From a virus, in IMG/VR virus record IMGVR_UViG_3300009068_000140, positions 1 to 28,949 of that record: 28,949 nucleotides of DNA; one strand, 5' to 3'. Numbering within the stretch: the first letter of the stretch is position 1; each line of letters starts with the position of its first letter. Below, piece by piece: positions 4,706-28,949 of the stretch. The notes under the pieces were generated by a model. That model was not told the origin of the DNA and did not search any database. It worked only from the letters and a program-made list of their open reading frames with translations. The position numbers were made by a program, and so were the translations under genes.

Positions 4706-5005
4706 TCAAATCTCCAAGTACTCATCACCGTCTTCGGTAGTGATGAACAAGTCACCTGCTTCCTGTATCAACCCTGCAGGATGCGTATTGATAGGGGTGT
4801 CAGGGCGGGTGAAAGGCAGCACAATCTGGTCAGGCGCTCGGGGTGCAAGTCGGTACGGATCATAGTCATCTAGGTCTTCTTTGCAAACCATAAGGCCCGG
4901 CGAATTTGGGTCCGGTGACAGTTCAGCAAGTAAGAACTTGCGTGAACACCGTCCGCATATGGCAATCCCGTAGGTAGCCTGACCAGAAACGTCTAGGTAT
5001 ATCAT
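4706..5005 (-). CDS. Small Cys-containing phage protein (99 aa), function unknown
   Basis: A 99-residue acidic protein that starts in an ATGA overlap with the tail adaptor gene and ends directly against the fibre start. Near the N-terminus it has CGRC (residues 17-20), and a further Cys follows at MVCKEDL, a partial zinc-ribbon pattern lacking a clear fourth ligand. The rest is Pro/Asp-rich (DDYDPYRLAPRAPDQI). Position between adaptor and fibre suggests a small tail or connector component. I do not recognise a defined family and assign no function. Confidence 0.6.
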   Translation of the reverse strand: MIYLDVSGQATYGIAICGRCSRKFLLAELSPDPNSPGLMVCKEDLDDYDPYRLAPRAPDQIVLPFTRPDTPINTHPAGLIQEAGDLFITTEDGDEYLEI

Positions 5006-5982
5006 CGCGTGTACGCACCGATGGCAGGCTGGATAAAGATTGGCGAACCATCATTGTCGCCATCCCAAGCTGTTTGACGAGACGCCAAATATTTCTGCTC
5101 AAGAATCGGAATCAAATTAATGTCTACTTGAGCTGTTTCTGAGGCCACCTTAGCGGCTAGCCCGTTCACAATGGCTTCCAACCAACGCTGCGGCACCTCA
5201 ACGTCTTGCTGCAAGTTTTCGGTATCCATGATGTGCCGATGACGCCAAACGATAAGTTGGGCTTGCTCAGCGCCAGCAAATGGCGCGGGCCACACATGCA
5301 TCACAGGCTCTGGAATGTCTCGTTGAAACCAGTAGCTATTAGGCCTGCCTGGAAAAACCTTGTTTGACTGCGCAACGTAGGTATCCCTGTTCAGCACACC
5401 AAAGGGTATTTCCTGAGGCATGTTGCCCAGCGTAATGGTCGTATAAAGGATTGTGCTAGCAGAGGTGATCCTGAAGTACTGGTACGCAAGAGCGCCGGAA
5501 ATATCTGTCCAAACAATCTCACCTGCAACTGCGGCCACCGACGAGCTACCGACTGTAACCCAAGTTGTGCCGTTCGTTGAGACCTGAAACGTGACAGTAA
5601 CTGAGGTGCCTGACCATTCAATGCCAATCGTGTCTACCACCGTGGCTGAGCCAAAGTTGACTGTATACGACGTGCTGGTTGTTGTTTCTGTGCCAGTCAC
5701 CGGCTGAATGACTCGGTAGTTAGCATTGAGCACCTCTACCGTGCCGACAGGGAGAGGGATAATCTCCTGGTTTTCGTAGAAGGGCAAGATGAGTTTTTCA
5801 ATGCACCAACTAGGAGTCTTGATGTTTGCCATTTCAGACAACTGCAAGTAGAGTGACTCTAGTGCATAAGTCTGCATCTCAGCAGTAATGGCTTGCGCAG
5901 GCAAACGGCAACGCCTAAAGGCATGGTCGACTACCTTTAGCGCATTGAATGTTGTGCCGCTTACATTGCCAGAAAACGCCAT
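5002..5982 (-). CDS. Tail adaptor / tail-tubular-type virion protein with inserted beta-sandwich
   Basis: A 326-residue protein. The N-terminal helices (ALKVVDHAFRRCRLPAQAI, then YALESLYLQLSEMAN) and the C-terminal half (RDTYVAQSNKVFPGRPNSYW, PEPVMHVWPAP, WRHRHIMD) resemble podovirus tail-tubular-A/gp4-like head-tail adaptors that dock under the portal. Between them, at about residues 98-190, sits a Thr/Ser/Val-rich stretch with a F5/8 type C (discoidin)-like pattern (IGIEWSGTSVTVTFQVSTNG, then YQYFRITSAS). This would be a surface carbohydrate-binding-type insertion. The adaptor call is by resemblance and gene order. The insertion call rests on composition and strand pattern. Confidence 0.65.
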   Translation of the reverse strand: MAFSGNVSGTTFNALKVVDHAFRRCRLPAQAITAEMQTYALESLYLQLSEMANIKTPSWCIEKLILPFYENQEIIPLPVGTVEVLNANYRVIQPVTGTETTTSTSYTVNFGSATVVDTIGIEWSGTSVTVTFQVSTNGTTWVTVGSSSVAAVAGEIVWTDISGALAYQYFRITSASTILYTTITLGNMPQEIPFGVLNRDTYVAQSNKVFPGRPNSYWFQRDIPEPVMHVWPAPFAGAEQAQLIVWRHRHIMDTENLQQDVEVPQRWLEAIVNGLAAKVASETAQVDINLIPILEQKYLASRQTAWDGDNDGSPIFIQPAIGAYTR

Positions 5983-11285: not shown

Positions 11286-13874
11286 TCAAGTGCCGGGATT
11301 GACGCCTGTACCTGTTGAGACGGCAAACTTCTCGCCCGTAGCTAACTCGGTTGCAGCTAAGCGTAGGGCTGTGTTGTTGTCGTCGGTGTTCATTTGATAG
11401 CGGGTTTGCAGTTCGATCTTTGTGCGCTCGTTCGCTGATTGCTCTTTGAGGATTGTTTGCTGAGCGTCTTCTGCCATCTTTTGTGCATTTTGCTGTGCAT
11501 CTTGCTGCACTTTGACTTGCTCAAGTTGTAGCTTAGCTTGCTCAAGTTGCATATTAACTTGTTCAGCCTGTATAGCTTGCTGCATTTTTGCTTGCTCAAG
11601 TTGAGCGGTTTGCTGCATTTTTGCTTGCTCAAGTTGAGCGGTTTGCTGCATTTTTGCCTGATCAAGTTGTGTGCGTTGCTGTAGTGCTTGGCCTTGCAAC
11701 TGCGCATTGAGTTGTGCTACTTGCATGCTGCTGTCTGGCGGCATAGGCGGTTGAGGTTTAAACTGCTGAGCAGCTTGGTCAATCTGTGCCAACTCTTGGG
11801 CAAAGCCGCTAAGCTGTTGCTCAATGATTTCTTGCACCTTGAGAATCACCTTGACCTGTTGCTCTGCTTCTTTCTCAATCAAGTCCTTCTTCTGCGCAAC
11901 GTCCACTGCCTCATGAGCCTCAGTCAGATAGTAGTTCAGCAAGTGGTCGCGCAGGTGAGTGGCCATCGGGAACATGTAGGTTTTAACGATGGCCGGGTTC
12001 TGGCCAAACAGCGGCGACTTCAGAAACGCCAAGTGTGTTTTGAGGTGAGCAATGTGGTCTTGCTGCGGCAGAACATAAACAGGAGTTCCCATAACTGCAG
12101 CCACGTTCTCGCTCACCGGGTCAATGTCCTCGGTGCCTGGCGCGGGTTGTAGTACATCGTCAGCGCTGATCTTCAGCGTGCGCAAAAACAATTGCTCAAT
12201 TTTGCGCTGGTCATACATCTGCGGCATGGTGGCCGAGCGTTGCATGAGCGCTTGAGTCTGAGCAAAGCGTTGCGTCTCGCTGAAGATTGCTGGGTCACTT
12301 ACCGGCACAACGTCCATTGGACCGTCAAAGTCTTCTGGCTTGACATCCAAACCAGATGCCTGCGCTTCAATGTCTTCAATGGTCAGGTAGGCGCTGTTGA
12401 TCCGGTGCAGAATCTTAAACACACGGCTCATTGAGCTATGGATGCGCGAGTGAATGCTAGAGAAGACCACCATACCCTGCTCAATCAGGGCCATCGTGGT
12501 ACCAACCGGCTGTGCTTGGTTGGCATCGCTCAGCTTCTCAAAGCTGGTCTGCACAACGCCCTTGCCTGCGTCAACCACAAAGCCTAGTAGCTGAAACAGT
12601 ACAGGGCTAGGACCATTGAACGGCAGCGGCATGGCCAGTTTGCGCACATCATCGATGAGCGCTCCGCCTTCAAGTTCCACAACCTCGGTGGGTTGGACGT
12701 TGAGCGTCTGGCCACCAGGACCGCCTTTTAGCTTGAGCAGGGTTGGGATGTTCTGAATGTGGGCGGAGTCCAGCAGGGCGCGTAAGGCACCTGTAGCTGC
12801 CCCTGACAAGCCGCCAATCATGTGGGTCAGGCCGATGGGGTAAGCACCCCGCCATGGCACAAAGGGGAATTCCACAATCCAGTCAAGTTCTACACGGCGC
12901 TCGTCTTCAGGTTCCCAGTTGCGGTACAGCGCCACGGCCTTGCTGCTGGTCTTGTCAATGCTGATGATGTACGGCTCAACCCCATCACCAAAGTCTAAGT
13001 GGGTGTAGATCTCGAAAATGGTGCGCAGACCGTCTTCATTGTAGGAGGTGTCCTTGCGCCCTTCAATTTTGTCATTGGCAATCGACGCCTTGCTGAAGTC
13101 AGGCACTTCTGGCGAACCAAGGTCAACGTCAATGTACATCTCACATTTGACCCGACGCTGGTACTCCATCTTAGTCACATACTGGACGTGGGTCTTGCGC
13201 TCAGCGCTGTAGAAGTTGGTAGCCGCAAAGGGCAAATACACATCATCGATGGGGATGAACTCAGCGCAAGGGCGCAGGTATTGGGCGCTCCACATCATTT
13301 TGAGGTACTGAGCACCGCCCAAGGGCAGTTGGGTACTGAGCTGCTCTAACTCACCACGGAACTCAACCATCTGCTCAGTAGCCTGCCAGTTCATGTAGTC
13401 AGTCTTGCGCTCGGCCTTGGCGACCTTGTCCTTCTCCTTCTCGCCTAGGATCTTGCTCTTGACTGGGCCGCCAGGAGGGAAGATCTCCTTCATCACTCGG
13501 CTAGAGAAGTCCACGCAGGCTTCCACCAGCATGGGGTGGACAACCTTTGTTGAGCCGGTGAACTGCGCACCGCCCGGTGCATCGTCACCTAAGCCAGTAC
13601 GGCGCAAGCCTTCCTCGTAGAGCTTGTCTCGCTTCTGCCGTGCGTCTTTGTCCTTGGCAACCTTGTCTAGCAGGTCGGTGACGGCGTCTTGCAAGTCGGC
13701 TTGGTCAACCTCGTCAACAATGTTGGCAAAGTGCGCTTGCTTTTGGCGTTGGTCGTCCTCGTTCTTGAGTTTGACCATTGCGCCGCCGTCATCAGTATCC
13801 TCGGTGTCTGACTCGTCATCATCTACCTCAACGATTTCGTCTTCTTCAATGGTCAGGTCTGTATTTTTAGGCAT
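11286..13874 (-). CDS. Portal protein with long Gln-rich C-terminal coiled coil
   Basis: I use the ATG at 13874-13872 (862 aa), 8 bases inside the preceding gene. The protein has an acidic N-terminus, then a portal-type body (HPMLVEACVDFSSRVMKEIFP, YLKMMWSAQYLRPCAEFIP, WIVEFPFVPWRGAYPIGLTH, then a clip/stem region around GFVVDAGKGVVQTSFEKLS). Twelve copies would form the DNA-entry ring where terminase docks. From about residue 719 to 809 the sequence is Gln/Ala/Leu-rich with 11-residue repeats (EQAKMQQTAQL). P22 gp1 has a long C-terminal helical barrel, and this region could be its counterpart. The length is more than the usual 500-750 residues, mostly because of this tail. Confidence 0.9.
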   Translation of the reverse strand: MPKNTDLTIEEDEIVEVDDDESDTEDTDDGGAMVKLKNEDDQRQKQAHFANIVDEVDQADLQDAVTDLLDKVAKDKDARQKRDKLYEEGLRRTGLGDDAPGGAQFTGSTKVVHPMLVEACVDFSSRVMKEIFPPGGPVKSKILGEKEKDKVAKAERKTDYMNWQATEQMVEFRGELEQLSTQLPLGGAQYLKMMWSAQYLRPCAEFIPIDDVYLPFAATNFYSAERKTHVQYVTKMEYQRRVKCEMYIDVDLGSPEVPDFSKASIANDKIEGRKDTSYNEDGLRTIFEIYTHLDFGDGVEPYIISIDKTSSKAVALYRNWEPEDERRVELDWIVEFPFVPWRGAYPIGLTHMIGGLSGAATGALRALLDSAHIQNIPTLLKLKGGPGGQTLNVQPTEVVELEGGALIDDVRKLAMPLPFNGPSPVLFQLLGFVVDAGKGVVQTSFEKLSDANQAQPVGTTMALIEQGMVVFSSIHSRIHSSMSRVFKILHRINSAYLTIEDIEAQASGLDVKPEDFDGPMDVVPVSDPAIFSETQRFAQTQALMQRSATMPQMYDQRKIEQLFLRTLKISADDVLQPAPGTEDIDPVSENVAAVMGTPVYVLPQQDHIAHLKTHLAFLKSPLFGQNPAIVKTYMFPMATHLRDHLLNYYLTEAHEAVDVAQKKDLIEKEAEQQVKVILKVQEIIEQQLSGFAQELAQIDQAAQQFKPQPPMPPDSSMQVAQLNAQLQGQALQQRTQLDQAKMQQTAQLEQAKMQQTAQLEQAKMQQAIQAEQVNMQLEQAKLQLEQVKVQQDAQQNAQKMAEDAQQTILKEQSANERTKIELQTRYQMNTDDNNTALRLAATELATGEKFAVSTGTGVNPGT
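11581..11646 (-). repeat. 33-bp tandem repeat in the portal gene
   Basis: Two identical 33-base units (11581-11613 and 11614-11646), with a diverged third unit starting at 11647, encode the 11-residue repeat EQAKMQQTAQL. The exact DNA identity, including third positions, suggests recent unit duplication by slippage inside the coiled-coil coding region. Confidence 0.85.
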
Positions 13875-16800
13875 ATGCACTTTCACGTTGCGCAACTATT
13901 TGCTGGATGCGTTCAGGATCATACTCATCATCTAAGCCAGCAATGATTTGTTGAATTTTAATTGGGTCAAAATTGGTTGAGACTAAGCCGCCGTGGGCCA
14001 TGCCTTCGGGTTTAGGAGCAAACTCAGCTTTAAATGCCTCGAGCTCCTCATCAGTCATGAACGCGGGTCGGCCTTCTATAGCCTTACCAGCAGCGCGGGC
14101 ATCATGTAGCCCTGCATTCGCCAAGTCATTAACTTCAGACCAATTGCCACTCTTGACAAAGTCCTGCACGAATGGTAGGTACTCATCAGCAGGTTTTTTG
14201 TTCCTGAAGCCTTTGATTTGAATGATTCTTTCAGGTCCAGACTTATCATCACGTTTCCATGCGTCAAAGGTGGTGTACCCAGGTCTAGTTTCAATTGTCA
14301 CCTGTGGTTGACCTTTTGCATCACGTAGTGAATAAATGCTAGCTTCACCTTCTCGAATGGCGGTTATGCCTCCTGCGCCATAGTTACCTTGAATGCCATA
14401 CCCGCCGACAGAGTGGCCCATGACGTCGCCTTCATACTTTAAGGCCTTTTTAAGCGGGTCATTCTTAAAATACTGAGGATAATTTTCCCTAAGATCATCA
14501 AAAGCGTAAGTATAATTGTCGTGCGAAACCAGCAATTCACCTTTAGAATTTCGAATAACGTATTCGTCACCTTCTTGTTTACCTTTAAGACTTTTAGGTA
14601 AAATATCAAGAGTTGGGTCATGTCTAATTTGCACCCACTTTAAACCAAGCTTATTAGGGGTATCTAATCCGGGAATAGTTGGATACTCTTTGTGCAGGAA
14701 TGTAGCTGCATTGTTGGCAATCAATTGGTTGGCTTCTATCTTCTGTGTGGCACGCCAAGCATTGATGTCAGCCACACGGTCAACCGCTTGAGTCATTGTG
14801 AGCTTGCCTAAGTCGGCAGGGTCAATGAGCAAGTTTTTAGGCAAACCAGATGCAGGATTAGTGGCATTGCGAAGTTCATCAACGAGGTGGTCAAAGCCAA
14901 GGTCACTATTTAAACCGTTATATAAGTTATAAACTGGTGTTTCCGAAGGAACTTTAAAAAGCCAAGGATTTTTTATTTGAACCCCTTGGTAGTCCCCGGT
15001 GGTCAGGTCAGATGCTTTAAGGCTATTGATAAATGAGTCAGACTTGCTTTCCCATGCCTTGGCTTGTGGAGATACACCCATACCCTCTTCTGGGAAACCT
15101 CTCTCTTTGCGTTTACGTCCCATGTCGTATGTGGTTGGTAAAATTTCTGCATGAAGTGCCTCCCTAACTTGCAACAGGTCTCTCTCTTTCTCTAGGCCAA
15201 TCATCTGCTGGCGCATTGAGGTCAGCATCTCAACAGGCACGCCACGCTTTCTAGCCGTTTGTTCCATCTTGGCAGCAAAGGCATCAATCCGACCTTGCAC
15301 CTCAGCCAGCCTAACTGGTTTGTCCACAGCATACTTCTCAGCCATTGCTCGCAACGGATCATTAGGTGTGGCCATTTCATCGCGGATGTACGGTGCAATC
15401 TTCTTGTCAATGAAGTTGTTGACCGGGTCAGGCGGTAAATAATAACCATCTCCTCCTGACTTATCTCTAACAAAACCTCTTGCAATAAAGTCATCAGCTT
15501 CTTCTTGGCTAAATGCAATTGAAGGAGTTCCACGCCGTTTCATTGGACTCACAGATTCTTCCACCGAGCCGGACAACCAGTTGCCGCCAGGCATTTTGAT
15601 GACACCAAGTTGGGCTGCACGGCTGCCAGAAGCAGGTCCGGGGGCAGCTTCAGCAATTGCTTTGGCCGTTGCCTTTGCACTCTTGATGCCATACCGAGCA
15701 AGTGTCGTGGAGCCTGCACCGCCAAGCAAGTTGCCTGCAGCGGTAAATGCTTTACCTGTTGGAGTTTGATTCAACTGAGCACCCGGCAGATACTCGTTAT
15801 AGAACTCAGTGGTTGGTAGCTGTGGAGTAGGGTCTGCACGGCTGCCTATGCCAAATGCACGTAGTGCAGGGAAAGCTGCCAACACTTGCGGCGGCAGTTG
15901 AGAGATGCCTGCACGGGCCAACCCCTCAATGTCTCCTGGCAATCCGGCAGTACCCGCTGCGTAGCCTCGGAGTGCAGATAGTGGTGCATTGGCCGCAGCC
16001 TCACGGTCTTGCAGTGCCCGGCGTGGCTTCATCTGCGGGAATACGCCAAAGGCTGCACCGCCTTCGTCAAAGTGGACTGCGCCGCCCTTGGCAAAGCCTT
16101 CTGGCGGCTCAAGAAAATCAGAAAATTGTCTGGTTGACATAAACCGATTTGCTTCAGGATTAAAATTGACCGCGTAGTTAAACTTGTCAATCCGATCTTT
16201 TGGCAAGTCCCTATCTAAAACTTCTCTTAAAGCCCTCTGAACGCTATGGGTATCCTTTAAATCAACAATGTTGAAGTGGTCCAAATCGGTTACCGTACCC
16301 CATTCACTAGAGTTAAGGAACTTTAACGTTGAGTCTGTGATCTTGTTCTGATACTGTGGGTCGCGACTCTTGTACTCCAGTGCACGGGCACTGGAGAAGT
16401 CATTGCTAACAGGTTTAATCTCTGTGATATTGGATGGGCCGCTGATTGATGCAAGGTAGCGCTTGTAAGATTTAGGCATATTGCTTTGCAACCATGCCAA
16501 TACTTCTTCCGTGTCAACGTCACCATGCGGTGCAAATTCGTTAGAGCCTATATACCTATTGAATTTGCGCTGTTCTGCTGCAGACATTGTTTGCATTATG
16601 TCGTCAACGTCATCCATGATGTCCCCGGAATAGGGGATAGATGTAATCTTTGCTTGTGCATGAGGGCGGCCATCGGCATCTATCAAAGTAGTAAGCCGAT
16701 TTGGCCCAGAGCCATAACTCTTAGCTAACCCTTCGCCTTGAGTACACCAACCACCTTGCTTACCAATGGTAGTGCAAAGGTTCAACCCAATCTTGTCGGT

Positions 16801-18237
16801 TGTCTCGGGGATGTCAACCCATTTCATTCCAGGCTTGTCAACAAACGATAGTTGTGTTGTTGGATCTTCAAGACGTGAATTAGCATTAAGGTTGCCCATC
16901 ATGCCTGCTTTTTCAGCTTTAATAGCTTCTGCAGCACGCCAAGCATTGATCTGGCTGACACGCTCAACAGCTTGAGGTACACTTAATTGTGGTAAACTAC
17001 TAGACTTTAAACGTAAATTAGGTGGCAGACTACTGGCTAAGTCTGTAGCATTACGAAGTTCGTCAACGATGTGGTCAAAACCTAGCTGTTGTCCCGAGTT
17101 AGCGTAAGCACCATACGTCATTGTCTCTGGTGGAACTTTAGCTAGCCATGGGTTTTCCAATAGGTTTTTTTCTGATGCTGAAATAGTAGTATTGAGCCGT
17201 TCCCTAGCAGGGGCATTATGAATAGCCTCGTCAGCAGCTGCTTCCCAACGTTGAGCTGCTTCTGATTGCCCAAAACCCTTAGCAGGAAAGCCAACAGATT
17301 CTCGACGACGACCTAGTACGTCACTCAAATAAGTATTAAGCGGCGCCATTTCAGCATAGGTTATACCCCGCTCAGCTAAGGCCCGGATTGGGTCTCCGGG
17401 GGTGGCCATGTCATTCTTAATATAATTGGTCAGTTGTTTGTCAATCCAGGTATTGAGTGCCTGATCTTTTGTTTTGCCTGTCAACAACGAATCTATGATT
17501 TCCGGATGATTTTGTTTCAACCATGGAATTTGCTTTTTTGCGTAGTCCATTGAGTGCATCCCAGAAGCACGAAAAGCGTCCGAATATTCCTGAGTGATTC
17601 CCGGAAAGTTTTGTTCGATAAAGTTGGCGTCCGTTTGTTTCATATTTCTGCCTTCAGAAAAGTCAAACGCAGGCACGTCGGTTTTTAACCCTTTCAATGA
17701 ATTCTCAAAACTACCGGCCAATTGGTTACCACCTTTGGGCTTAATAACGCCGGGCATCAAACCTTGCCGCTGCAAATAGTCCTCGCCTATCCGCACAGCG
17801 GTTGGCCCTAGTGCTTGGCCCGTTGCCTTTGCACTCTTAATACCATACTTAGCAAGTGTCGTAGTTCCTGTGCCGCCAAACAAGTTGCCTGAAGTAGTGA
17901 ATGCTTTGCCTGTTGGAGTTTGATTCAACTGAGCACCGGGTAGGTATTCGTTGTAGAACTCGGTTGTTGGCATTTGCGGCGTGGGATCTGCGCGACTGCC
18001 TATGCCAAATGCACGAAGTGCAGGAAAGGCTGTCAGCAGTTGTGGCGGCAGTTGGGAGATACCTGCACGGGCTAAGCCTTCTATATCTCCTGCTAACCCT
18101 GCTGTGCCTGCTGCCCAACCCCTCAACGCTGACAATGGCGCATTAGCAGAAGCGGTTCTGTCGTTGTTGGCCTCAGGCCTACGACCAGCAGACCGATAGC
18201 GTGGAGGCAAGAACTCGTCAAGAGGGTCAAGCGGCAT
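13867..18237 (-). CDS. Giant internally duplicated protein (1456 aa) between terminase and portal
   Basis: The start at 18237 follows AAGGTG by 7 bases and overlaps the terminase stop by 11 bases. The protein is two full-length diverged copies in tandem. Residues 31-~142 match 749-~862 almost exactly (GISQLPPQLLTAFPALRAFG versus GISQLPPQVLAAFPALRAFG). Later blocks also pair: NDMATPGDPIRA/DEMATPNDPLRA, NPWLAKVPPE/NPWLFKVPSE, GFDHIVDELRNAT/GFDHLVDELRNAT, and QINAWRA/DINAWRA. Each unit ends with a GFAKGG- or GMAHGG-type motif (714-720, 1412-1417). The C-terminal part of each unit carries a PcfJ-like pattern (copy 2: GHSVGGY, IYSLRDAKGQPQVTIE, IIQIKGFRN). Function is unknown. An injected virion/ejection protein or large polyvalent protein is possible given its size and place. 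Confidence 0.75.
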   Translation of the reverse strand: MPLDPLDEFLPPRYRSAGRRPEANNDRTASANAPLSALRGWAAGTAGLAGDIEGLARAGISQLPPQLLTAFPALRAFGIGSRADPTPQMPTTEFYNEYLPGAQLNQTPTGKAFTTSGNLFGGTGTTTLAKYGIKSAKATGQALGPTAVRIGEDYLQRQGLMPGVIKPKGGNQLAGSFENSLKGLKTDVPAFDFSEGRNMKQTDANFIEQNFPGITQEYSDAFRASGMHSMDYAKKQIPWLKQNHPEIIDSLLTGKTKDQALNTWIDKQLTNYIKNDMATPGDPIRALAERGITYAEMAPLNTYLSDVLGRRRESVGFPAKGFGQSEAAQRWEAAADEAIHNAPARERLNTTISASEKNLLENPWLAKVPPETMTYGAYANSGQQLGFDHIVDELRNATDLASSLPPNLRLKSSSLPQLSVPQAVERVSQINAWRAAEAIKAEKAGMMGNLNANSRLEDPTTQLSFVDKPGMKWVDIPETTDKIGLNLCTTIGKQGGWCTQGEGLAKSYGSGPNRLTTLIDADGRPHAQAKITSIPYSGDIMDDVDDIMQTMSAAEQRKFNRYIGSNEFAPHGDVDTEEVLAWLQSNMPKSYKRYLASISGPSNITEIKPVSNDFSSARALEYKSRDPQYQNKITDSTLKFLNSSEWGTVTDLDHFNIVDLKDTHSVQRALREVLDRDLPKDRIDKFNYAVNFNPEANRFMSTRQFSDFLEPPEGFAKGGAVHFDEGGAAFGVFPQMKPRRALQDREAAANAPLSALRGYAAGTAGLPGDIEGLARAGISQLPPQVLAAFPALRAFGIGSRADPTPQLPTTEFYNEYLPGAQLNQTPTGKAFTAAGNLLGGAGSTTLARYGIKSAKATAKAIAEAAPGPASGSRAAQLGVIKMPGGNWLSGSVEESVSPMKRRGTPSIAFSQEEADDFIARGFVRDKSGGDGYYLPPDPVNNFIDKKIAPYIRDEMATPNDPLRAMAEKYAVDKPVRLAEVQGRIDAFAAKMEQTARKRGVPVEMLTSMRQQMIGLEKERDLLQVREALHAEILPTTYDMGRKRKERGFPEEGMGVSPQAKAWESKSDSFINSLKASDLTTGDYQGVQIKNPWLFKVPSETPVYNLYNGLNSDLGFDHLVDELRNATNPASGLPKNLLIDPADLGKLTMTQAVDRVADINAWRATQKIEANQLIANNAATFLHKEYPTIPGLDTPNKLGLKWVQIRHDPTLDILPKSLKGKQEGDEYVIRNSKGELLVSHDNYTYAFDDLRENYPQYFKNDPLKKALKYEGDVMGHSVGGYGIQGNYGAGGITAIREGEASIYSLRDAKGQPQVTIETRPGYTTFDAWKRDDKSGPERIIQIKGFRNKKPADEYLPFVQDFVKSGNWSEVNDLANAGLHDARAAGKAIEGRPAFMTDEELEAFKAEFAPKPEGMAHGGLVSTNFDPIKIQQIIAGLDDEYDPERIQQIVAQRESAYA
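15652..15993 (-). repeat. Repeat unit 2 (N-terminal module of copy 2) of the duplicated gene
   Basis: This stretch encodes residues 749-862 and is closely similar at DNA level to 17812-18147, in the same orientation 2.15 kb apart. It is the best conserved part of the internal tandem duplication; flanking parts of the two copies have diverged much more. Confidence 0.8.
17812..18147 (-). repeat. Repeat unit 1 (N-terminal module of copy 1) of the duplicated gene
   Basis: Encodes residues 31-142 and pairs with 15652-15993. Shared protein blocks include GDIEGLARAGI, FGIGSRADPTPQ, EFYNEYLPGAQLNQTPTGKA and YGIKSAKAT. Long nearly identical DNA repeats in direct orientation could recombine and collapse the gene to one unit. 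Confidence 0.8.
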
Positions 18238-23371: not shown

Positions 23372-23564
23372 GGCTTCCCCTTGCTTGGTCGGCAAGGAGT
23401 GCCGCCACGCCAATCTCCATGAACGCAACGATCAAAGCCGTTCTGTTCATACCTTTTGGCAAATTGGATGTGGCCTTTATGGCTTCAGAGAGATAGATGC
23501 GGGTTGCGTCACAGCTGTCATAAACGCGACCCTCTATTGAAGAGGTTGGCTGCGGAGAGTCCAT
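23361..23564 (-). CDS. Small protein upstream of primase (67 aa), function unknown
   Basis: A 67-residue frame starting after GAAAG, with its stop 11 bases inside the primase start, so the two are probably coupled. The sequence has a polar N-terminus (MDSPQPTSSIEGRVYDS) and a helical C-terminal half (YLSEAIKATSNLPKG, TALIVAFMEIGVAALLADQA). It is not clearly a membrane segment. No motif is recognised. It is the first gene of the leftward transcript from the divergent control region, so a regulator or primase accessory is possible. Confidence 0.5.
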   Translation of the reverse strand: MDSPQPTSSIEGRVYDSCDATRIYLSEAIKATSNLPKGMNRTALIVAFMEIGVAALLADQARGSHAN

Positions 23565-23603
23565 GTTTTTCTTTCAATGCCCATTCACAAGTGTAGGTTG
23601 GGC

Positions 23604-23629
23604 GGATGCTGTGAAAGGGGAAAGCATCC
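23604..23629 (-). other. Hairpin in the leader of the leftward primase transcript
   Basis: GGATGCT (23604-23610) and AGCATCC (23623-23629) form a perfect 7-bp stem with a 12-base loop. It lies between the divergent promoters and the 67-residue gene, so it would be in the 5' leader of the primase mRNA. No U-tract follows, so an mRNA structure is more likely than a terminator. Confidence 0.45.
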
Positions 23630-23663
23630 TTGTCGGTCGAGTAGCTAATTCGTCCCAAGCCCA

Positions 23664-23702
23664 TTGACATCATACATCAAAAAACTGATGTACAATACAT
23701 CA
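23664..23702. promoter_or_regulatory. Divergent early control region with four TACATCA-type half-sites
   Basis: Half-sites GACATCA (23666-23672), TACATCA (23673-23679), TGATGTA (23686-23692) and TACATCA (23696-23702) are packed in 37 bases up to the regulator's ATG. A TACAAT box (23691-23696) would start rightward RNA at or next to the ATG. A TTGACA (23664-23669) lies 21 bases upstream, which is long. On the other strand TTGTAC (23695-23690) and TATGAT (23674-23669) could serve the leftward primase genes. Such spacing fits cooperative binding by the Cro-like protein encoded next. Confidence 0.55.
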
Positions 23703-23959
23703 TGATTGAAAAAAAACCCAAACCTTTTAAAGCCGATTGTCAAGAGGCCCTAGACCTCCTCCTAGTCCACATGGGTACAAAGGCTGAGATGGCTCGGCAA
23801 GCAAAGATGAGCCGGAACACCGTTTCCTACTGGTTCACACGAGGACAGATCGGCCGTGTTGCGGCCAGAAAATTTGGCTCGATGAAGGCCATACCATTCA
23901 CAAAAGAGCAGCTCAGACCAGACATCAAGGACTGGACCCCTATGTATAAACGCAAATAG
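23702..23959 (+). CDS. Cro/YdaS-like helix-turn-helix regulator
   Basis: An 85-residue protein with a clear helix-turn-helix at about 26-52 (TKAEMARQAKMSRNTVSYWF). TRGQIGRVAARKFGSM follows, then the typical Cro-like tail FTKEQLRPDIKDW. It should bind DNA as a dimer and repress promoters, very likely its own, since the half-site cluster reaches its start codon. There is no Shine-Dalgarno sequence before the ATG, and the predicted -10 is only 5 bases upstream. The mRNA may therefore be leaderless, as for lambda cI from PRM. Its TAG stop is part of the first repeat cassette. Without an integrase in view, lytic timing control is as likely as lysogeny. Confidence 0.85.
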   Translation: MIEKKPKPFKADCQEALDLLLVHMGTKAEMARQAKMSRNTVSYWFTRGQIGRVAARKFGSMKAIPFTKEQLRPDIKDWTPMYKRK

Positions 23960-24044
23960 TTGCAAAATAGTTGTGCAACACTCAAAAAGTGTTGTACAAT
24001 GCAATCACGGCAACCTCGCCGTCTCAATGTTGTAAAGGATCATC
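23954..24044 (+). promoter_or_regulatory. Repeat cassette, copy 1: promoter, operator, 5' hairpin
   Basis: From the upstream TAG stop onward: -35 TTGTGC (23971-23976), 18-base spacer, -10 TACAAT (23995-24000). The spacer region holds the inverted repeat CAACACT-CAAAA-AGTGTTG (23976-23994). The predicted mRNA begins near 24007 with ACGGC-AACCTC-GCCGT (24007-24022), then TCAATGT (24024-24030), AAAGGA and the ATG of the protease-like gene. The same layout recurs at 24436 and 27625. Confidence 0.75.
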
Positions 24045-24437
24045 ATGGAATATAAATTCAATGACGGCGGCCGTCAAGCTGCAGGCTTCAAGGGCACAGC
24101 AGGTGACTGCGGAGCTCGGGCAATGGCAATAGCTTTGCAGCTTGACTACAAAGCCGTGTACAAGGAACTATCACAAGCAAACTGTGACAACGGTCGTTCA
24201 AGGTCAGCACGCAATGGCATCATGAAAGACATTTACACAGTAGTGCTCAAGCGTTATGGGTGGGCATGGCACAAGGCCCCTCAGTTTATAGGCCGTAAGG
24301 CTCGCTGCAGTGATATGCCAAAAGGCAGTGTGATTGCCAAGCAAGCCCATCATCTTGTAGCAGTGATTGACAGTGTGGCAAACGACACCTGGGACTGCAC
24401 CCACAAAATGGTCTATGGCTACTGGGCCAAGCAGTAA
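24045..24437 (+). CDS. Cysteine-protease-like (papain-fold type) phage protein
   Basis: A 130-residue protein with a good AAAGGA site. The pattern TAGDCGARAMAIA (18-30), GRSRSARNGI (50-59), KRYGWAW (69-75), MPKGSVIAKQAHHLVAVIDS (91-110) and NDTWDCTHKMVYGYW (113-127) resembles a small phage family with a papain-like arrangement. The likely catalytic Cys is C22 at the helix start, with His H102/H103 before a strand and an Asp/Asn near 113-117. It is the first gene behind its own promoter cassette. Cleavage of a host or phage protein, or a non-enzymatic fold, are both possible. No substrate can be named. Confidence 0.55.
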   Translation: MEYKFNDGGRQAAGFKGTAGDCGARAMAIALQLDYKAVYKELSQANCDNGRSRSARNGIMKDIYTVVLKRYGWAWHKAPQFIGRKARCSDMPKGSVIAKQAHHLVAVIDSVANDTWDCTHKMVYGYWAKQ

Positions 24438-24525
24438 AATAGTTGCAAAATAGTTGTGCAACACTCAAAAAGTGTTGTACAATGCACTCACGGCAGTCTC
24501 GCCGTCTCAATGTCGAAAGCCTATC
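24436..24525 (+). promoter_or_regulatory. Repeat cassette, copy 2: promoter, operator, 5' hairpin
   Basis: Nearly identical to copy 1 for about 75 bases, beginning in the TAA stop of the protease-like gene. TTGTGC (24454-24459), 18-base spacer with CAACACT-CAAAA-AGTGTTG (24459-24477), TACAAT (24478-24483), hairpin ACGGC-AGTCTC-GCCGT (24490-24505) and TCAATGT follow in order. The stem is unchanged from copy 1 while the loop differs. The ribosome site (GAAAG) is weaker. Confidence 0.75.
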
Positions 24526-24729
24526 ATGACCGTCCTCACAGCCAACAACCCACTCATCGTCACCATCAAAAATGTCTATGGAAAAGAGATGATCTATCCT
24601 GCCAACTCTGTTGCTCAAATCTTTGCCGACATTGCACGGCAACATACTTTGAGCCGCGACACACTCAAGCTTGCTCAAGCCCTCGGCTACAAGATCGAAG
24701 TCAAGCAAACTGCCTTGGAGCTTGCATGA
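24526..24729 (+). CDS. Small conserved-type early protein (67 aa), function unknown
   Basis: The start is the ATG at 24526, right after cassette copy 2. Sequence: MTVLTANNPLIVTIKNVYG, then IYPANSVAQIFADIARQHTL and SRDTLKLAQALGYKIEVKQ. It looks like a small alpha/beta protein. I recall similar short proteins in early regions of other phages, without a function. The stop overlaps the next start as ATGA. It leads the transcript that contains the helicase and nuclease genes. Confidence 0.65.
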   Translation: MTVLTANNPLIVTIKNVYGKEMIYPANSVAQIFADIARQHTLSRDTLKLAQALGYKIEVKQTALELA

Positions 24730-24887
24730 ACGCCCTTACTAGAGACATCATGAAGTGGCTCAACATCAGTCTTGAGCTTGCACTTGATGTGCAATACAAG
24801 ATGATGGAAACAGGCATTTCATTTGGCAGCAGCTCGACTCGTGAGCTCAAGCAGTGTGCAAAAGAATGTCTGGACTTGATCAAATGA
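24726..24887 (+). CDS. Tiny helical protein (53 aa), function unknown
   Basis: A 53-residue frame with ATGA overlaps at both ends. It is all helical (TRDIMKWLNISLELALDVQYK, then TRELKQCAKECLDLIK) with two Cys residues near the end. No motif is recognised. Coupled start and stop overlaps argue that it is translated. Confidence 0.6.
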   Translation: MNALTRDIMKWLNISLELALDVQYKMMETGISFGSSSTRELKQCAKECLDLIK

Positions 24888-24997
24888 AAGTCTTCTTGGC
24901 ACTCTTTGTTATGGCAATCTTAGTGCCATTCCTTTTATTAGGCATGGCAGCAAGTGTGCTCATCAGTCGCATTTGGTATTGGGCCATTGCCAAATGA
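24884..24997 (+). CDS. Single-span membrane peptide (37 aa)
   Basis: The ATG at 24884 overlaps the previous stop as ATGA, and its TGA overlaps the helicase start as ATGA. The 37-residue product is nearly all hydrophobic (VFLALFVMAILVPFLLLGMA, then SVLISRIWYWAIAK) with Lys at both ends. It should cross the membrane once, perhaps twice if the span folds back. It may anchor replication to the membrane, block superinfection or alter the host envelope. This is speculation. Confidence 0.6.
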   Translation: MKVFLALFVMAILVPFLLLGMAASVLISRIWYWAIAK

Positions 24998-26535
24998 ACC
25001 TGTACCCTCATCAAGTCCAAGCCGTCAAGTGGCTAGGTCAACGACCTAAGGCTATTCTTGCGCTTGACATGGGTCTAGGCAAGACAGGTGTGTCTAGCCT
25101 AGACTTGTCTGTGCCTGCATTGGTCGTGTGTCCTGCATCACTCAAACTCAACTGGCAAGCCGAGCTCAAGATGTGGCGGCCTGAACTTAGCGTGCAGGTT
25201 GTTCGCAGCCCCAAGGATCCAATCAAAGGCCTTGACGTCACCATTGTCAACTACGACATACTAGGCAAGCTTGACCTACCTAAACCGGTCACTTTGATAG
25301 TGGATGAAGCTCACTACATCAAGAACTACAAAGCCAAGCGTACAAAGCTGTTAATGAGTCTGATCAAGACCACAACCAATGTCAGCCTGTTGACAGGCAC
25401 ACCTATAGTCAATCGACCTATCGAGCTGTGGACTTTACTCTATTCGATTGGAGCCACAAAGCTAGGTTACTTTGAGTTTGGTATGAGGTTCTGTGCAGGA
25501 TGGAAAACACCCTGGGACACCTACGACTTCAGCGGTTCAAGCCGTAAAAGTGAACTGATTAAAGTGTTAGAACCGTTCATGCTGCGGATGACAAAAGCTG
25601 AGTGCATTGACTTGCCATCAAAAACCTATCGAGTCATTGCCCTTGATTTGCCAGTTGACAAGCGCGAGAAGCAATTTACAGCTGACGAGATTGACAAGCC
25701 TGATTCGATTCCGTTTGAAGCCATCAGTGACATCAGACGCCTCAATGCAGAGCGCAAGCTAGACCAATCTATAAGCTACATCAAAGACTGTCTTGAACAG
25801 ACAGACAAGGTTGTAGTCTTTGCTCATCACACTCACATCATTGACGGGCTCATGACCGCCTTTAAGGACTATGAACCGGTCATGGTTACCGGCGCAGTCA
25901 AGAATGAAGACAGGCATGCTGCAGTTCAAACATTTCAAAACAACGCCAAGTGCAGGGTCTTTGTAGGCAACATCAAAGCTGCTGGAGTAGGTCTGACCCT
26001 GACAGCAGCAAGCCATGTCGTATTTGTTGAAGCACCATGGTCTCCCTCAGACCTTCAACAGGCAGCAGACCGCTGCCACAGAATCGGTCAACAAGACAAT
26101 GTCACTATTGACTTGTTGACGATAACCGGGTCCATCGATGAAATTATCTTACACAAGATATTGACCAAGATGGATGTCATTGATAGTGTCATTAAGGAGT
26201 CTACGGACATGAATGAAAAATTGATTGCAGCCAAGCTGCGTGAGTTGGCCGAATTGTTTGATTTGGCTGAAGAGGCACCAACACCCAAGGCCGTTGAACA
26301 AGAGGAACCTAAGGCTGTTGAGCAAGAGGTGTCAACCCCTAAAAAGCCAGCCAAACAAGTGGAGATTGAGCCACTTACGCTTGACCACATTCGCCAAGCA
26401 ATGGCCAAACTGATTGGCGCAGGCAAGCGTGAACAAGCTCTTGCCATCCTGGCTGAACTTGGAGTCAAAAAGGTCAGCGAGATCGGTGAAGAGCAATTCC
26501 AACAAACTATGGAATTGGTCAATGAAGCACGCTAA
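24994..26535 (+). CDS. SNF2/SMARCAL1-like superfamily 2 helicase
   Basis: Start at the ATG at 24994, coupled by ATGA; 513 residues. Helicase motifs in order: LYPHQ (3-7), Walker A DMGLGKT (25-31), VVCPASLKLNW (44-54), VDEAH (103-107), LLTGTP, and later GVGLTLTAASHVVFVEAPW and QAADRCHRIGQ. These are typical of DNA-translocating or annealing SF2 enzymes. After a charged linker with repeated KAVEQE, a ~55-residue helical C-terminal module follows (LDHIRQAMAKLIGAGKREQA, then LAELGVKKVSEI). This probably binds DNA or a partner. A role in fork remodelling or recombination with the downstream nuclease is likely. Confidence 0.9.
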   Translation: MNLYPHQVQAVKWLGQRPKAILALDMGLGKTGVSSLDLSVPALVVCPASLKLNWQAELKMWRPELSVQVVRSPKDPIKGLDVTIVNYDILGKLDLPKPVTLIVDEAHYIKNYKAKRTKLLMSLIKTTTNVSLLTGTPIVNRPIELWTLLYSIGATKLGYFEFGMRFCAGWKTPWDTYDFSGSSRKSELIKVLEPFMLRMTKAECIDLPSKTYRVIALDLPVDKREKQFTADEIDKPDSIPFEAISDIRRLNAERKLDQSISYIKDCLEQTDKVVVFAHHTHIIDGLMTAFKDYEPVMVTGAVKNEDRHAAVQTFQNNAKCRVFVGNIKAAGVGLTLTAASHVVFVEAPWSPSDLQQAADRCHRIGQQDNVTIDLLTITGSIDEIILHKILTKMDVIDSVIKESTDMNEKLIAAKLRELAELFDLAEEAPTPKAVEQEEPKAVEQEVSTPKKPAKQVEIEPLTLDHIRQAMAKLIGAGKREQALAILAELGVKKVSEIGEEQFQQTMELVNEAR

Positions 26536-27631
26536 GCTCTCACCGAGTGCTAGCTCTAGATGGATGACTTGCCCAGGCAGCGTCCATCTGGAACCTGACA
26601 TCAAAGGTGGCGACTCAAGCATCTATGCAGAGAAAGGCACTGCAATGCACACAGTGTCTGACCTTTGTCTGACTAAAGGCCTTGAACCAACCATGTTTGT
26701 TGGCAAGACGATCAATGGCCACATCATCACGCATGAAATGGCTGAGCTTGTTCAAGTCTATGTCAACTACATCCAAGCCCTCAACGGCCAAAAGTTTTAC
26801 GAAGAAAAGGTCACACTTGCAGAAGTCATTAATGATTGCTGGGGTACCGCAGACGCCATCGTCATTGATGGTTCATTGATGCGTGTCATTGATCTTAAAA
26901 CCGGCAGCGGTGTGCGCGTAGAGGCTGAAGGCAACACGCAGTTGCTCTGCTATGCATTGGGTGCTTACCTTAAATACGGCCTTGTGTACGACGTAGACAC
27001 GATCATGATGACTATCGTTCAACCACCGATGAACAGTATTGACAGCTGGACCATTGAACTAAAGGAACTCTTAGCATTTGCTGAAGAACTAAAGCGTTCT
27101 TACGCAGCCATTCAAAACGAACCTAACAAGTTTGTGGCTAGCGAGAAAGCCTGCAAATGGTGTCGTGCAAAAGCCAAATGCCCAGAGATGAACCGCTTAG
27201 CCAATGAGGCTGCAGCCATTGACTTCAAGACTAAGCCAGTTGGAATGGACCTTATAGAGGAATGGTTGCCTAAGTTGTCGGTGCTCAGCGCGTTTGTCGA
27301 AGCAGTAGAAGCCAAAGCAAAAGACATCTTACTGACCGGAGGCTTGATCCCTGGCTGGAAAGTTGTTGAAGGCCGTAAGACTAGGTCATGGCAAGACGTG
27401 CCAAAAACCGAGTTATGGTTGAAAAAACAAGGCTATGACCAGATCTATACAAAGTCAGTCTTGCTTAGCGTGGCTCAAATGGAGATTGCTCTTAAAGCTG
27501 AAAGCCTAGACATGAGCGCCTTGATCAAGGTAGACGTTGGCCAACCAACCATTGCTCCTGAGAAAGACAAGCGGTCATCCGTGGACAAGACTCAGTCCGC
27601 AAAAAAAGATTTTGCAAAAAGCTCAAAATAG
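26522..27631 (+). CDS. PD-(D/E)XK nuclease, DUF2800/Cas4-AddB-like
   Basis: Start at the ATG at 26522, 14 bases inside the helicase gene; 369 residues. N-terminus SPSASSRWMTCPGS carries a first Cys (C16). A GTAMHTVSDL helix and the nuclease core follow: GTADAIVID, then MRVIDLKTGSGVRVEAEGN (D and E/K ligands: IDLKT). NTQLLCYALGA, then ACKWCRAKAKCPEM with CxxC and a third Cys, complete the pattern. The four Cys residues suggest a Cas4-like iron-sulphur cluster. The Lys/Ser-rich C-terminus (VDKTQSAKKDFAKSSK) is probably disordered. It likely resects DNA ends in phage recombination along with the helicase and DUF2815 protein. Confidence 0.85.
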   Translation: MKHAKLSPSASSRWMTCPGSVHLEPDIKGGDSSIYAEKGTAMHTVSDLCLTKGLEPTMFVGKTINGHIITHEMAELVQVYVNYIQALNGQKFYEEKVTLAEVINDCWGTADAIVIDGSLMRVIDLKTGSGVRVEAEGNTQLLCYALGAYLKYGLVYDVDTIMMTIVQPPMNSIDSWTIELKELLAFAEELKRSYAAIQNEPNKFVASEKACKWCRAKAKCPEMNRLANEAAAIDFKTKPVGMDLIEEWLPKLSVLSAFVEAVEAKAKDILLTGGLIPGWKVVEGRKTRSWQDVPKTELWLKKQGYDQIYTKSVLLSVAQMEIALKAESLDMSALIKVDVGQPTIAPEKDKRSSVDKTQSAKKDFAKSSK

Positions 27632-27704
27632 TTGTGTACAGGCCTAAAAGTGTTGTACAATGCAATCACGGCAATGTCGCCGTCTCAATGTTAAAAGGTC
27701 TAAA
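27625..27704 (+). promoter_or_regulatory. Repeat cassette, copy 3: promoter and 5' hairpin, altered operator
   Basis: Begins in the TAG stop of the nuclease gene. TTGTGT (27632-27637), 18-base spacer and TACAAT (27656-27661) are kept. The left operator arm is changed, so the 7-bp dyad is lost; the right arm AGTGTTG stays. Hairpin ACGGC-AATGTC-GCCGT (27668-27683), TCAATGT and AAAAGG follow before the DUF932 start at 27705. A different operator suggests different control of this gene. Confidence 0.7.
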
Positions 27705-28676
27705 ATGGCACACGAACTAGATTTCTCAAATGGTCAAGCAAACGTTGCACTTGCTAAAAAAGGTGCATGGCATGGTCTCGGTCAGATTCTTGAAGCCGGT
27801 CAGCCTATCGGCGTGTGGGCAAAAGCTGCAGGCTTGACGCACACGGTTAACCGCTCAACGGTTCAGTATCAAGACAGCGAGGGTTCGTTTGCCGCGTACC
27901 CAAACAAAGATGTTCTCTATCGGTCAGACACGTTTGCCCCTCTCGGTGTTGTCAGCAATGACTACAACATCGTTCAACCAGCAGATGTGTTGGACTTTTT
28001 TGCCAAGCTTGCCGAGAACAATCACTTTGAACTGGAATCAGCAGGCGCACTCTCAGGTGGCAAGCGTATCTGGGCAATGGCCAAAGTCAATGATGGAGCT
28101 ACCATAATTGGCCAGGATGTTGTCAAACCATATGTCCTGTTGGCAACATCATATGACGGTACTCTTGCAACCACGGCGCGATTTACCTCAGTCCGTGTTG
28201 TGTGCAGCAACACTCTCGGTTATGCTTCAGCTGAGTCTGGTGACACGGTCCGTATCAATCATTCAAAAGAGTTCAGCGCAAAAGACACAGCACTAGATCT
28301 TGGCATTGCTTTGAATGGCTTTGAAAAGTTCTTGATCGACTCACGCCGTCTTGCAAAACAGCAAATCAATGCAACCTTTGCGGTTGAGTTCCTTAAAAAG
28401 CTGTTGCCTACATCGATGTCAACTAAGTTTGTTGATGGCATCAAAAAGATGGAAGTTGTGCCAGTAGAAAAAACAAAGGCTTTCCAGTCTATCATGGCTT
28501 TGTTCAATGGACAAGCCATCGGCAATGAGCTGCCAGAAGCAGAAGGCACAGCTTGGGGATTGCTCAATGCTGTGACTGAGCACGTTGATCATGGCCTTAA
28601 CCAGAATGCAGCATGGTTTGGTTACGGCAACACTCTCAAGAACAAAGCACGTGAGTTGCTAATGGATGTGGTCTAA
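27705..28676 (+). CDS. DUF932 / phage-plasmid-like protein
   Basis: I start at the ATG at 27705, behind AAAAGG; an ATG at 27660 lies inside the promoter cassette and is not used. The 323-residue product has the DUF932 (TIGR03299-type) pattern: WHGLGQI (22-28), APLGVVSNDYNIVQP (78-92), GGKRIWAMAKV, LATSYDGTLATTARFTSVRVVCSNTL (in two parts) and a C-terminal FGYGNTLKNKARELL. Members occur on phages and plasmids. Their function is not settled; a DNA-related or anti-restriction role has been suggested. It sits between the nuclease and the DUF2815 gene. Confidence 0.85.
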   Translation: MAHELDFSNGQANVALAKKGAWHGLGQILEAGQPIGVWAKAAGLTHTVNRSTVQYQDSEGSFAAYPNKDVLYRSDTFAPLGVVSNDYNIVQPADVLDFFAKLAENNHFELESAGALSGGKRIWAMAKVNDGATIIGQDVVKPYVLLATSYDGTLATTARFTSVRVVCSNTLGYASAESGDTVRINHSKEFSAKDTALDLGIALNGFEKFLIDSRRLAKQQINATFAVEFLKKLLPTSMSTKFVDGIKKMEVVPVEKTKAFQSIMALFNGQAIGNELPEAEGTAWGLLNAVTEHVDHGLNQNAAWFGYGNTLKNKARELLMDVV

Positions 28677-28689
28677 CGACCAAATGACA

Positions 28690-28733
28690 GGGAGGAAAGA
28701 CTCCCATTTTCATCAATGTTTTAAGGACTAAAA
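28690..28733 (+). promoter_or_regulatory. Degenerate fourth leader: 5-bp hairpin and TCAATGT box
   Basis: GGGAG-GAAAGA-CTCCC (28690-28705) has the same 5-bp stem and 6-base loop as the three cassettes but a different stem sequence. ATTTT follows, so it could also be a weak terminator. TCAATGT (28713-28719) and AAGGACT then lead to the next ATG. No TTGTGC/TACAAT promoter is present here. Confidence 0.5.
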
Positions 28734-28949
28734 ATGTCAAAGCTTGTTACCCCTGAGTTCCGTGGATCTTTTGTGCACGTACTTGAACCGCATGCCATTA
28801 AAGGCGTTGAAGGTGCAAAGCCTCGTTACCAAATCACCATCCCACTGCCTAAAAAGAGTTCGTTCTGGACTGATCTCAACAAAATGGTTGATGAGACAGC
28901 CAAAGCAAAATGGGGCAAAATCCCTCCAAAGATGAAGTCGCCTGTCAAA
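28734..28949 (+). CDS. DUF2815-type single-stranded-DNA-binding protein, partial
   Basis: Starts at the ATG at 28734 after AAGGA. 72 codons are present and the 3' end is beyond the window. The sequence VTPEFRGSFVHVLEPHAIKG, then PRYQITIPLPKKSSFWTDLNK, matches the N-terminus of DUF2815 proteins, phage OB-fold-type single-strand binders that often lie beside DUF2800 nucleases. It probably coats single-stranded DNA during replication and recombination. The rest of the recombination set may continue to the right. Confidence 0.75.
   Translation, partial: MSKLVTPEFRGSFVHVLEPHAIKGVEGAKPRYQITIPLPKKSSFWTDLNKMVDETAKAKWGKIPPKMKSPVK

Follow-up and report, generated by a model that had tools for sequence, protein, structure and literature searches.

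The 28,949-base sequence analysed here (hereafter, the window; IMG/VR virus record IMGVR_UViG_3300009068_000140) contains three near-identical cassettes, in each of which a sigma-70-like promoter is followed at a fixed distance by a short hairpin and then by a gene. Comparison with related contigs from uncultured phages showed that the cassette itself, the 6-nucleotide (nt) spacing between promoter and hairpin, a Y(-1)A(+1) step at the predicted transcription start, and the pairing of the stem have all been retained, and this pairing appears to be best read at the RNA level. On balance, we consider it probable that the main function of the hairpin is to protect the mRNA as a 5′-terminal stem. 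A broader picture, which is plausible but which we hold more tentatively, is that of a portable structural cap: joint selection on promoter and hairpin would make each mRNA of a small early regulon begin in a blunt stem, consisting of five pairs and a closing wobble pair, that marks it for survival, and the gene for the single-stranded DNA (ssDNA)-binding protein (ssb) would carry a second new leader RNA, read through its loop.

The three cassettes formed one dispersed repeat family (D2), with the stretch at 23954–24035 as the reference and further copies at 24437–24518 (94%) and 27615–27696 (79%). In each unit, the end of the upstream gene was followed by TTGTGC or TTGTGT, an 18-base spacer, TACAAT, 6 nt, and a 16-base hairpin (ACGGC-N6-GCCGT), and then by C, TCAATGT, a purine-rich stretch, and the next ATG. 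The loops of the three hairpins differed (AACCTC, AGTCTC, and AATGTC). When up to three mismatches were allowed, the core pattern occurred at exactly three sites in the window and at none in 100 shuffled sequences. A model of 61 units matched cassettes 1, 2, and 3 with E values of 8.1e-18, 3.5e-17, and 3.4e-17, respectively, the window units themselves being part of that model. The repeat family, the pattern search, and the shuffles therefore bear out the three promoter–hairpin units reported in a preliminary description of this DNA; the units as delimited here start at positions 23964, 24447, and 27625.

Related units were collected from IMG/VR contigs with pattern and protein searches, which yielded 74 distinct units in total. 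A pattern with the stem fixed returned 30 stretches, and a stem-free pattern returned 77, many of them by chance. Among 64 promoter matches, 61 were aligned; two chance matches (L052 and L076) and the promoter of a helix-turn-helix (HTH) gene (L016:4540) were left out. Two kinds of sites were also not aligned: a cassette-like promoter without the cassette hairpin in L008 (3599–3667) and the fused promoters of L055 and L081. Eight of 23 later matches extended the alignment to 69 units; the remainder were either identical sites seen in overlapping loci or duplicates of units already among the 61. A pattern in which both bases of stem position 4 were free gave 29 later loci, from which five units were added (L335, L336, L355, L357, and L361); four loci (L356, L358, L359, and L363) repeated known units, and the other 20 were left out as non-cassette. 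The latter included L340, L347, and L350, in which the loop CCGAGC breaks the A..C/G..U rule described below. These three contigs, which lack the cassette, instead showed TTGACA, 17 bases, TACAAT, the 6 nt TCACTC, ACGGC-CCGAGC-GCCGT, and then an open reading frame (ORF) of 74 amino acids (L340:5600–5670); this hairpin was selected by the search pattern, whereas TTGACA was not. In L008 (507–590) and L025 (10078–10161), approximately 28 bases with a second, imperfect hairpin were inserted between the cassette hairpin and TCAATGTT.

The 61-unit model matched one to five times per record in 38 records, a tally that holds by construction because 37 of these records had been preselected for holding the pattern. 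Contigs fetched with alignments of the DUF932 and ssDNA-binding proteins provided a route independent of the promoter. Among the best 80 of 224 DUF932 matches, all 23 contigs with a DUF932 protein at least 70% identical carried a hairpin separated from the -10 box by 6 nt, and three of these 23 had been missed by both the stem-fixed and the stem-free patterns. Cassette 1 as a query found no match in 50,697 phage records, and only one 21-base match (E = 0.6) in plasmid records; the whole 23500–28949 stretch had matches in three phage records (two short within-gene stretches). Among the genome-contig matches listed, the titles were spread over unrelated groups, as a short pattern would give, and did not identify a host.

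The stem was paired at all five positions in 74 of 74 units, with compensatory changes at three of the five pairs and seven stem versions. In the 69-unit alignment, all 345 pair cells held standard pairs and 21 cells, at three pairs, were changed on both sides, a value reached in none of 500 shuffles; when the partner strand was slid along, pairing fell to 60% or less. The commonest stems in this alignment were ACGGC/GCCGT (49 units) and ACAGC/GCTGT (14), followed by ACACC/GGTGT and ACGAC/GTCGT (two each) and ATGGC/GCCAT and ATGGC/GCCGT (one each). Both a U-A pair and the U-G intermediate at stem position 2 were present in the L250 contig, and the five added units contributed a G-U intermediate at position 4 (L361) and another ACGAC stem (L357). 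Different stems also occurred together in single contigs, such as L012, L025, and L250. The idea that the stem is selected as a structure, for which conservation and covariation in relatives had been named as the check, was upheld by these results, and the stem described as fixed beside a variable loop was so within the three window units; among the relatives, the stem varied and its pairing was kept.

The loop was present in 19 versions in the 69 units, with a length of 6 nt in 59 and 5 nt in 10. The position just inside the stem was A..C in 70 of the 74 units and G..U in four, on three different stems, and none of 100,000 permutations was as good. A..C and G..U can make wobble pairs of like shape, and the cassette helix may consist of six pairs with a four-base loop. 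Downstream of the hairpin lay the element CUYAAUGUU, in the form CTCAATGT in 55 of 69 units.

The distance from the -10 box to the stem was 6 nt without exception in the 74 units, and the 69 aligned units showed 19 different sequences in this gap. In all 74 units, the stem began with A and was preceded by C or T. Bacterial transcription usually starts 7 nt after the -10 box, with a pyrimidine at -1 and a purine at +1. Because of the fixed gap and the Y(-1)A(+1) step, we predict that transcription starts at the first stem base, which would leave zero unpaired nucleotides at the 5′ end. The placement of the hairpin at the very beginning of the mRNA, as put forward in the preliminary description, is thus supported as a prediction.

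In Escherichia coli, RNase E is stimulated by the 5′ monophosphate that RppH generates from the triphosphate, and this is hindered by a 5′ hairpin, according to passages of PMC3997798 and PMC10667835; the rule of two unpaired nucleotides is given in the former for Bacillus RppH and in the latter for RppH in E. coli work. The cassette could act on this pathway. A sigma-70-like promoter with its start locked to the first base of the 16-nt hairpin would produce an mRNA beginning with pppA in a blunt-ended stem, and RppH, needing about two unpaired 5′ nucleotides, would be unable to make the monophosphate that activates RNase E. The message would then last longer, while the downstream CUYAAUGUU and Shine–Dalgarno region would stay open to ribosomes. 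The variable loop fits such a structural role. The start site, the protection, and the early timing are what we infer from the comparison. The role of RppH in T4 mRNA turnover was called undetermined in a passage of a 2010 review (PMC3014915), and the cassette offers a direct, inexpensive way to ask whether RppH and RNase E are counteracted by phages at mRNA 5′ ends.

Several observations weigh against a protective 5′ stem. A generic sigma-70 scan picked up none of the three cassettes, and the -35 box is weak, matching TTGACA at three of six positions. Short stems are another weakness, and the leaders folded with ordinary energies (z = -0.84, 0.55, and -1.37). The promoter hexamers alone were not above chance either (with up to two mismatches there were six matches, three exact, whereas shuffled sequences averaged 9.97). 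Because the hexamers, the scan, and the folding energies are unremarkable, function is not provable from the window alone, and the case rests on comparison. Within the comparison, the measure counting further pair types was unexceptional (reached by 73 of 500 shuffles), and stem versions are common to related contigs, the independent events being far fewer than the changed cells, which are uncorrected for relatedness. Some promoters of the family, in L008, L055, and L081, lack the hairpin. Finally, at 56 DUF932 loci with 35–42% identity, the 36 distinct leaders included none in which a -10 box with up to one mismatch was followed by a hairpin at a distance of 6 nt.

At three of the distant loci (L322, L329, and L331), the stem GCCGTC/GACGGC lay 6 nt after TAATAT, which has two mismatches; including an outer U-G pair shortens the distance to 5 nt. 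The DUF932 protein of phage DSL-LC04 (OR003939) showed 44.5% identity, and its leader read TTGCGC-18-TATAAT-6-GCGGGA-AUCC-UCCCGC, that is, a 16-base hairpin with six pairs and a four-base loop in unrelated sequence. This distant case was spotted by eye and is suggestive only. In the genome background of DSL-LC04, 0.6% of positions started a hairpin of 6 bp or more with a 3–6-nt loop, and 2.3% started one of 5 bp or more with a 3–8-nt loop; a scan of that genome for promoters with a hairpin 3 to 10 nt downstream found two other places, with gaps of 4 and 9 nt. The cassette model had no match in the isolates DSL-LC04 and CRP-901.

Compensatory change by itself cannot distinguish RNA pairing from a DNA operator, in which the 5-6-5 inverted repeat at +1 to +16 would bind a dimeric phage repressor and the half-sites would change together through protein symmetry. 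The repeat is perfect and lies at the classic repressor position, and small HTH or HTH-like proteins are among the phage gene products. However, the G-U states in L250 and L361 break the symmetry of the DNA yet keep the RNA pairing, the closing position is never palindromic in the 74 units, and the spacing of the arms takes two values, corresponding to the two loop lengths. Moreover, one protein would need to bind all the stems that coexist in contigs such as L012, L025, and L250. The operator was dropped as the main explanation on these grounds, and we regard it as decidedly unlikely. It is unlikely, if somewhat less so, that the hairpin binds a phage or host RNA-binding protein at the start of the mRNA and, like boxB or a coat-protein operator, serves antitermination or the control of translation; several leaders do have a short stem-loop in a constant position ahead of the conserved CUYAAUGUU, which would suit such a protein, but the many loop versions make one that reads the loop unlikely.

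The position of the cassettes on either side of a variable slot, with zero to two extra modules, and their near-identical copies in one genome are also what would be expected if the conserved stretch were mainly a recombination substrate, a patch of homology for shuffling small genes, and the hairpin had little function of its own. We consider this quite improbable, because homology alone predicts neither the compensatory changes, nor the fixed 6-nt spacing, nor the Y(-1)A(+1) step. Least credible is a role of the hairpins as transcription terminators or attenuators, which has very little probability. The hairpin at 28690 was flagged as terminator-like on both strands, but its tail is not T-rich in the relatives L026, L253, and L254, and the cassette hairpins of units 1–3 were not flagged and are followed by CUCAAUGUU; for the cassette hairpins, the terminator reading was rejected for want of a U run. 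An N4-type single-strand promoter hairpin would be in the wrong place, the cassette hairpin lying downstream of the promoter, and no T7-like RNA polymerase domain was found when eight records were searched, but the control matched nowhere either, which makes this negative uninformative. Also set aside were a small upstream ORF beginning at TCAATG, the ATG of which is lost in most leaders with the type II hairpin described below, and a pseudoknot between the loop and the downstream element, for which the loops, judged by eye, are too variable.

An operator had been described as present in two window copies and lost from one. Lying in the promoter spacer, the dyad CAACACT/AGTGTTG was indeed found whole only in units 1 and 2 of the window, with none in unit 3, but it does not define the cassette: among 66 scored units (three units of L250 were unparsable), at least five of its seven positions were kept in 19, four in 17, and three or fewer in 30. 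The best-kept part was the right half together with the -10 box, GTTGTACAAT, found in 67 of 69 units and also contained in the search patterns for most of them. Lying upstream of the predicted start, this dyad would act as DNA.

In terms of gene context (Table 1), the interval from the HTH gene to the conserved second-slot gene contained one, two, or three cassettes together with varying small genes in 29 loci and the window; these counts refer to cassettes matching the pattern of the script, and some of the 29 loci came from the same contig. The cassettes bound a variable slot, which held zero to two gene-plus-cassette modules beyond the minimum form of HTH gene, one cassette, and second-slot gene. 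This minimum was seen in L007, L022, and L028, and the window has one gene plus cassette more. It looks as if whole modules were gained or lost through recombination between cassettes, as proposed for the PeSLs of T4-type phages (work cited in PMC4503421). In related contigs, a further cassette was located approximately 8 kb on (a position outside the window), ahead of a weakly MarR-like gene. In L006, the 155-amino-acid winged-helix-like protein behind it (4631–5095; weak MarR/TrmB-like match under the cut-off, E = 0.0011) is a candidate regulator of the cassette set.

Table 1. Features of the cassette region in the window.
Feature	Position	Strand	Remarks
Small HTH gene	23702–23959	+	Upstream of cassette 1; weak YdaS-like match, under the Pfam cut-off
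Cassette 1	23964–24045	+	-35 TTGTGC 23971–23976; 18-base spacer; -10 TACAAT 23995–24000; predicted +1 24007
Cassette 1, downstream part	Hairpin 24007–24022; TCAATGT 24024–24030; AAAGGA 24034–24039; ATG 24045	+	
Dyad TTGTGCAACACT/AGTGTTGTACAA	23971–23999 (also 24454–24482)	+	Spans -35 to -10; one mismatch in 12; candidate operator
Type I hairpin ACGGC-AACCTC-GCCGT	24007–24022 (others 24490–24505, 27668–27683)	+	Predicted mRNA 5′ end
Variable-slot gene	24045–24437	+	130 amino acids; PHROG 3754; separates cassette 1 from cassette 2; relatives have another gene or none here
Cassette 2	24447–24528	+	-35 24454–24459; -10 24478–24483; hairpin 24490–24505
Cassette 2, downstream part	TCAATGT 24507–24513; ATG 24526	+	
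Conserved 67-amino-acid gene	24526–24729	+	Follows cassette 2; unmatched in Pfam and PHROG
Cassette 3	27625–27706	+	-35 27632–27637; -10 27656–27661; hairpin 27668–27683
Cassette 3, downstream part	TCAATGT 27685–27691; ATG of DUF932 gene 27705	+	
DUF932 gene	27705–28676	+	Behind cassette 3; E = 2e-54
Second hairpin UGGUC/GACCA	28669–28682	+	Upstream of type II hairpin; other stems there in some relatives
Type II hairpin GGGAG-GAAAGA-CTCCC	28690–28705	+	Leader of ssDNA-binding-protein gene; 5-bp stem, 6-nt loop
TCAATGT	28713–28719	+	Common to ssb leader and cassettes; TCAACGT in many relatives
Enc34-like ssDNA-binding-protein gene	28734–28949	+	E = 3.9e-7; truncated by window end

Some observations concern other parts of the window. 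The promoter region of the HTH gene (23664–23700) has a dyad of its own beside TACAAT, TACATCA-N6-TGATGTA, which differs from the cassette dyad and is replaced by another sequence in relatives such as L016. A 1456-amino-acid ORF at 13867–18237, with no Pfam match, contains direct repeats (a 300-nt repeat of 82% identity with its copies 2154 bp apart, and others 2184 bp apart), and 33-bp tandem repeats occur at 11493–11679 within a predicted portal-like ORF. No integrase was found in eight records, which may be fragments (control positive, 14 of 14).

The hairpin at 28690 had been taken for a partial fourth copy of the cassette, and this was not borne out. It is a separate element, without a cassette promoter at its site in the window, and combines a fixed loop with a variable stem. 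In 19 ssb leaders, 95 of 95 pair cells were paired and double changes occurred at four of the five pairs (18 cells; none of 500 shuffles), whereas the number of changed pairs alone was reached by 60 of 500 shuffles. RNAalifold recovered the type II stem unaided, and simple hairpins suffice as the structure. The loop GAAAGA and its closing G-C pair were invariant, and a scan of viral loci for GGAAAGAC with four flanking pairs found 14 sequence versions ahead of the ssb gene and one unrelated match. A fixed loop with a free stem is the mark of an RNA hairpin that is read by sequence, and the element is most likely a second, loop-specific RNA that serves as a protein-bound translational operator. 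Because gp32 and gp43 of T4 regulate their own translation via leader structures, as passages of PMC535899 and PMC3014915 state, autoregulation by the ssDNA-binding protein through its leader would be a first guess. In L055 (183–281) and L081 (3929–4037), which have no DUF932 gene, the remnant of a fused promoter lies directly ahead of the ssb leader.

Among known systems, the operators of gp32 and gp43 in T4 and RB69 (PMC535899, PMC3014915, as far as their passages describe them) resemble the 28690 element in being structured leader RNAs ahead of a phage gene for an ssDNA-binding protein or polymerase, and a structured RNA is likewise found in the ssb leader here. The element differs from them in its simple hairpins, its invariant GAAAGA loop, and its Enc34-like ssDNA-binding-protein gene. 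In Rfam, the 23500–28949 stretch had no credible match (three matches with E values of 2.7 to 4.5, far below the curated scores), making the ssb leader a second candidate RNA element without an Rfam match. For the cassette hairpin, the conserved apical loop that characterizes lambda boxB/nut was not found, the 69 units having 19 loop versions. The SAS and ESAS of Cluster K mycobacteriophages are also dispersed, start-associated repeats with inverted repeats at a subset of non-structural genes, but the authors found little support for RNA pairing in ESAS, according to sections of PMC3203893, whereas pairing in the cassette is kept by compensatory changes; the 13-bp SAS, GGGATAGGAGCCC, had no match in the window with up to two mismatches and none in the 69 aligned units.

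The PeSL cassettes of T4-type phages are termed "promoter-terminator motifs" in the title of Comeau 2014 (cited in PMC4503421). As portrayed in parts of PMC4503421, they are small, dispersed units of an early promoter and a stem-loop tied to gene shuffling, and similar dispersed cassettes were found here in a gene-shuffling region. Unlike in PeSLs, the promoter of the cassette precedes its hairpin, which is part of the leader and has no U run; units 1–3 gave no terminator-like match, and CTCAATGTT or a near form follows. With the 5′ stem-loops of the ompA/papA type in E. coli (PMC3997798, in the passages on them), the cassette shares a short stem-loop at the extreme 5′ end of the mRNA that would block access of RppH and RNase E, and its stem-loop is conserved as an RNA structure, as in a stabilizing 5′ stem-loop. 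It differs in that the hairpin belongs to a promoter unit that recurs ahead of several genes of the phage and in which the stem apparently fixes the start. Stabilizing 5′-terminal hairpins, promoter–stem-loop cassettes, and ssb operators are thus each known, and neither their combination nor the start-locked stem was found described among the titles and abstract openings of the openly licensed literature. Hairpins at the 5′ end are textbook means of stabilizing bacterial mRNA; here, such a hairpin seems to have been built into a reusable phage promoter module in which the transcription start is tied to the stem.

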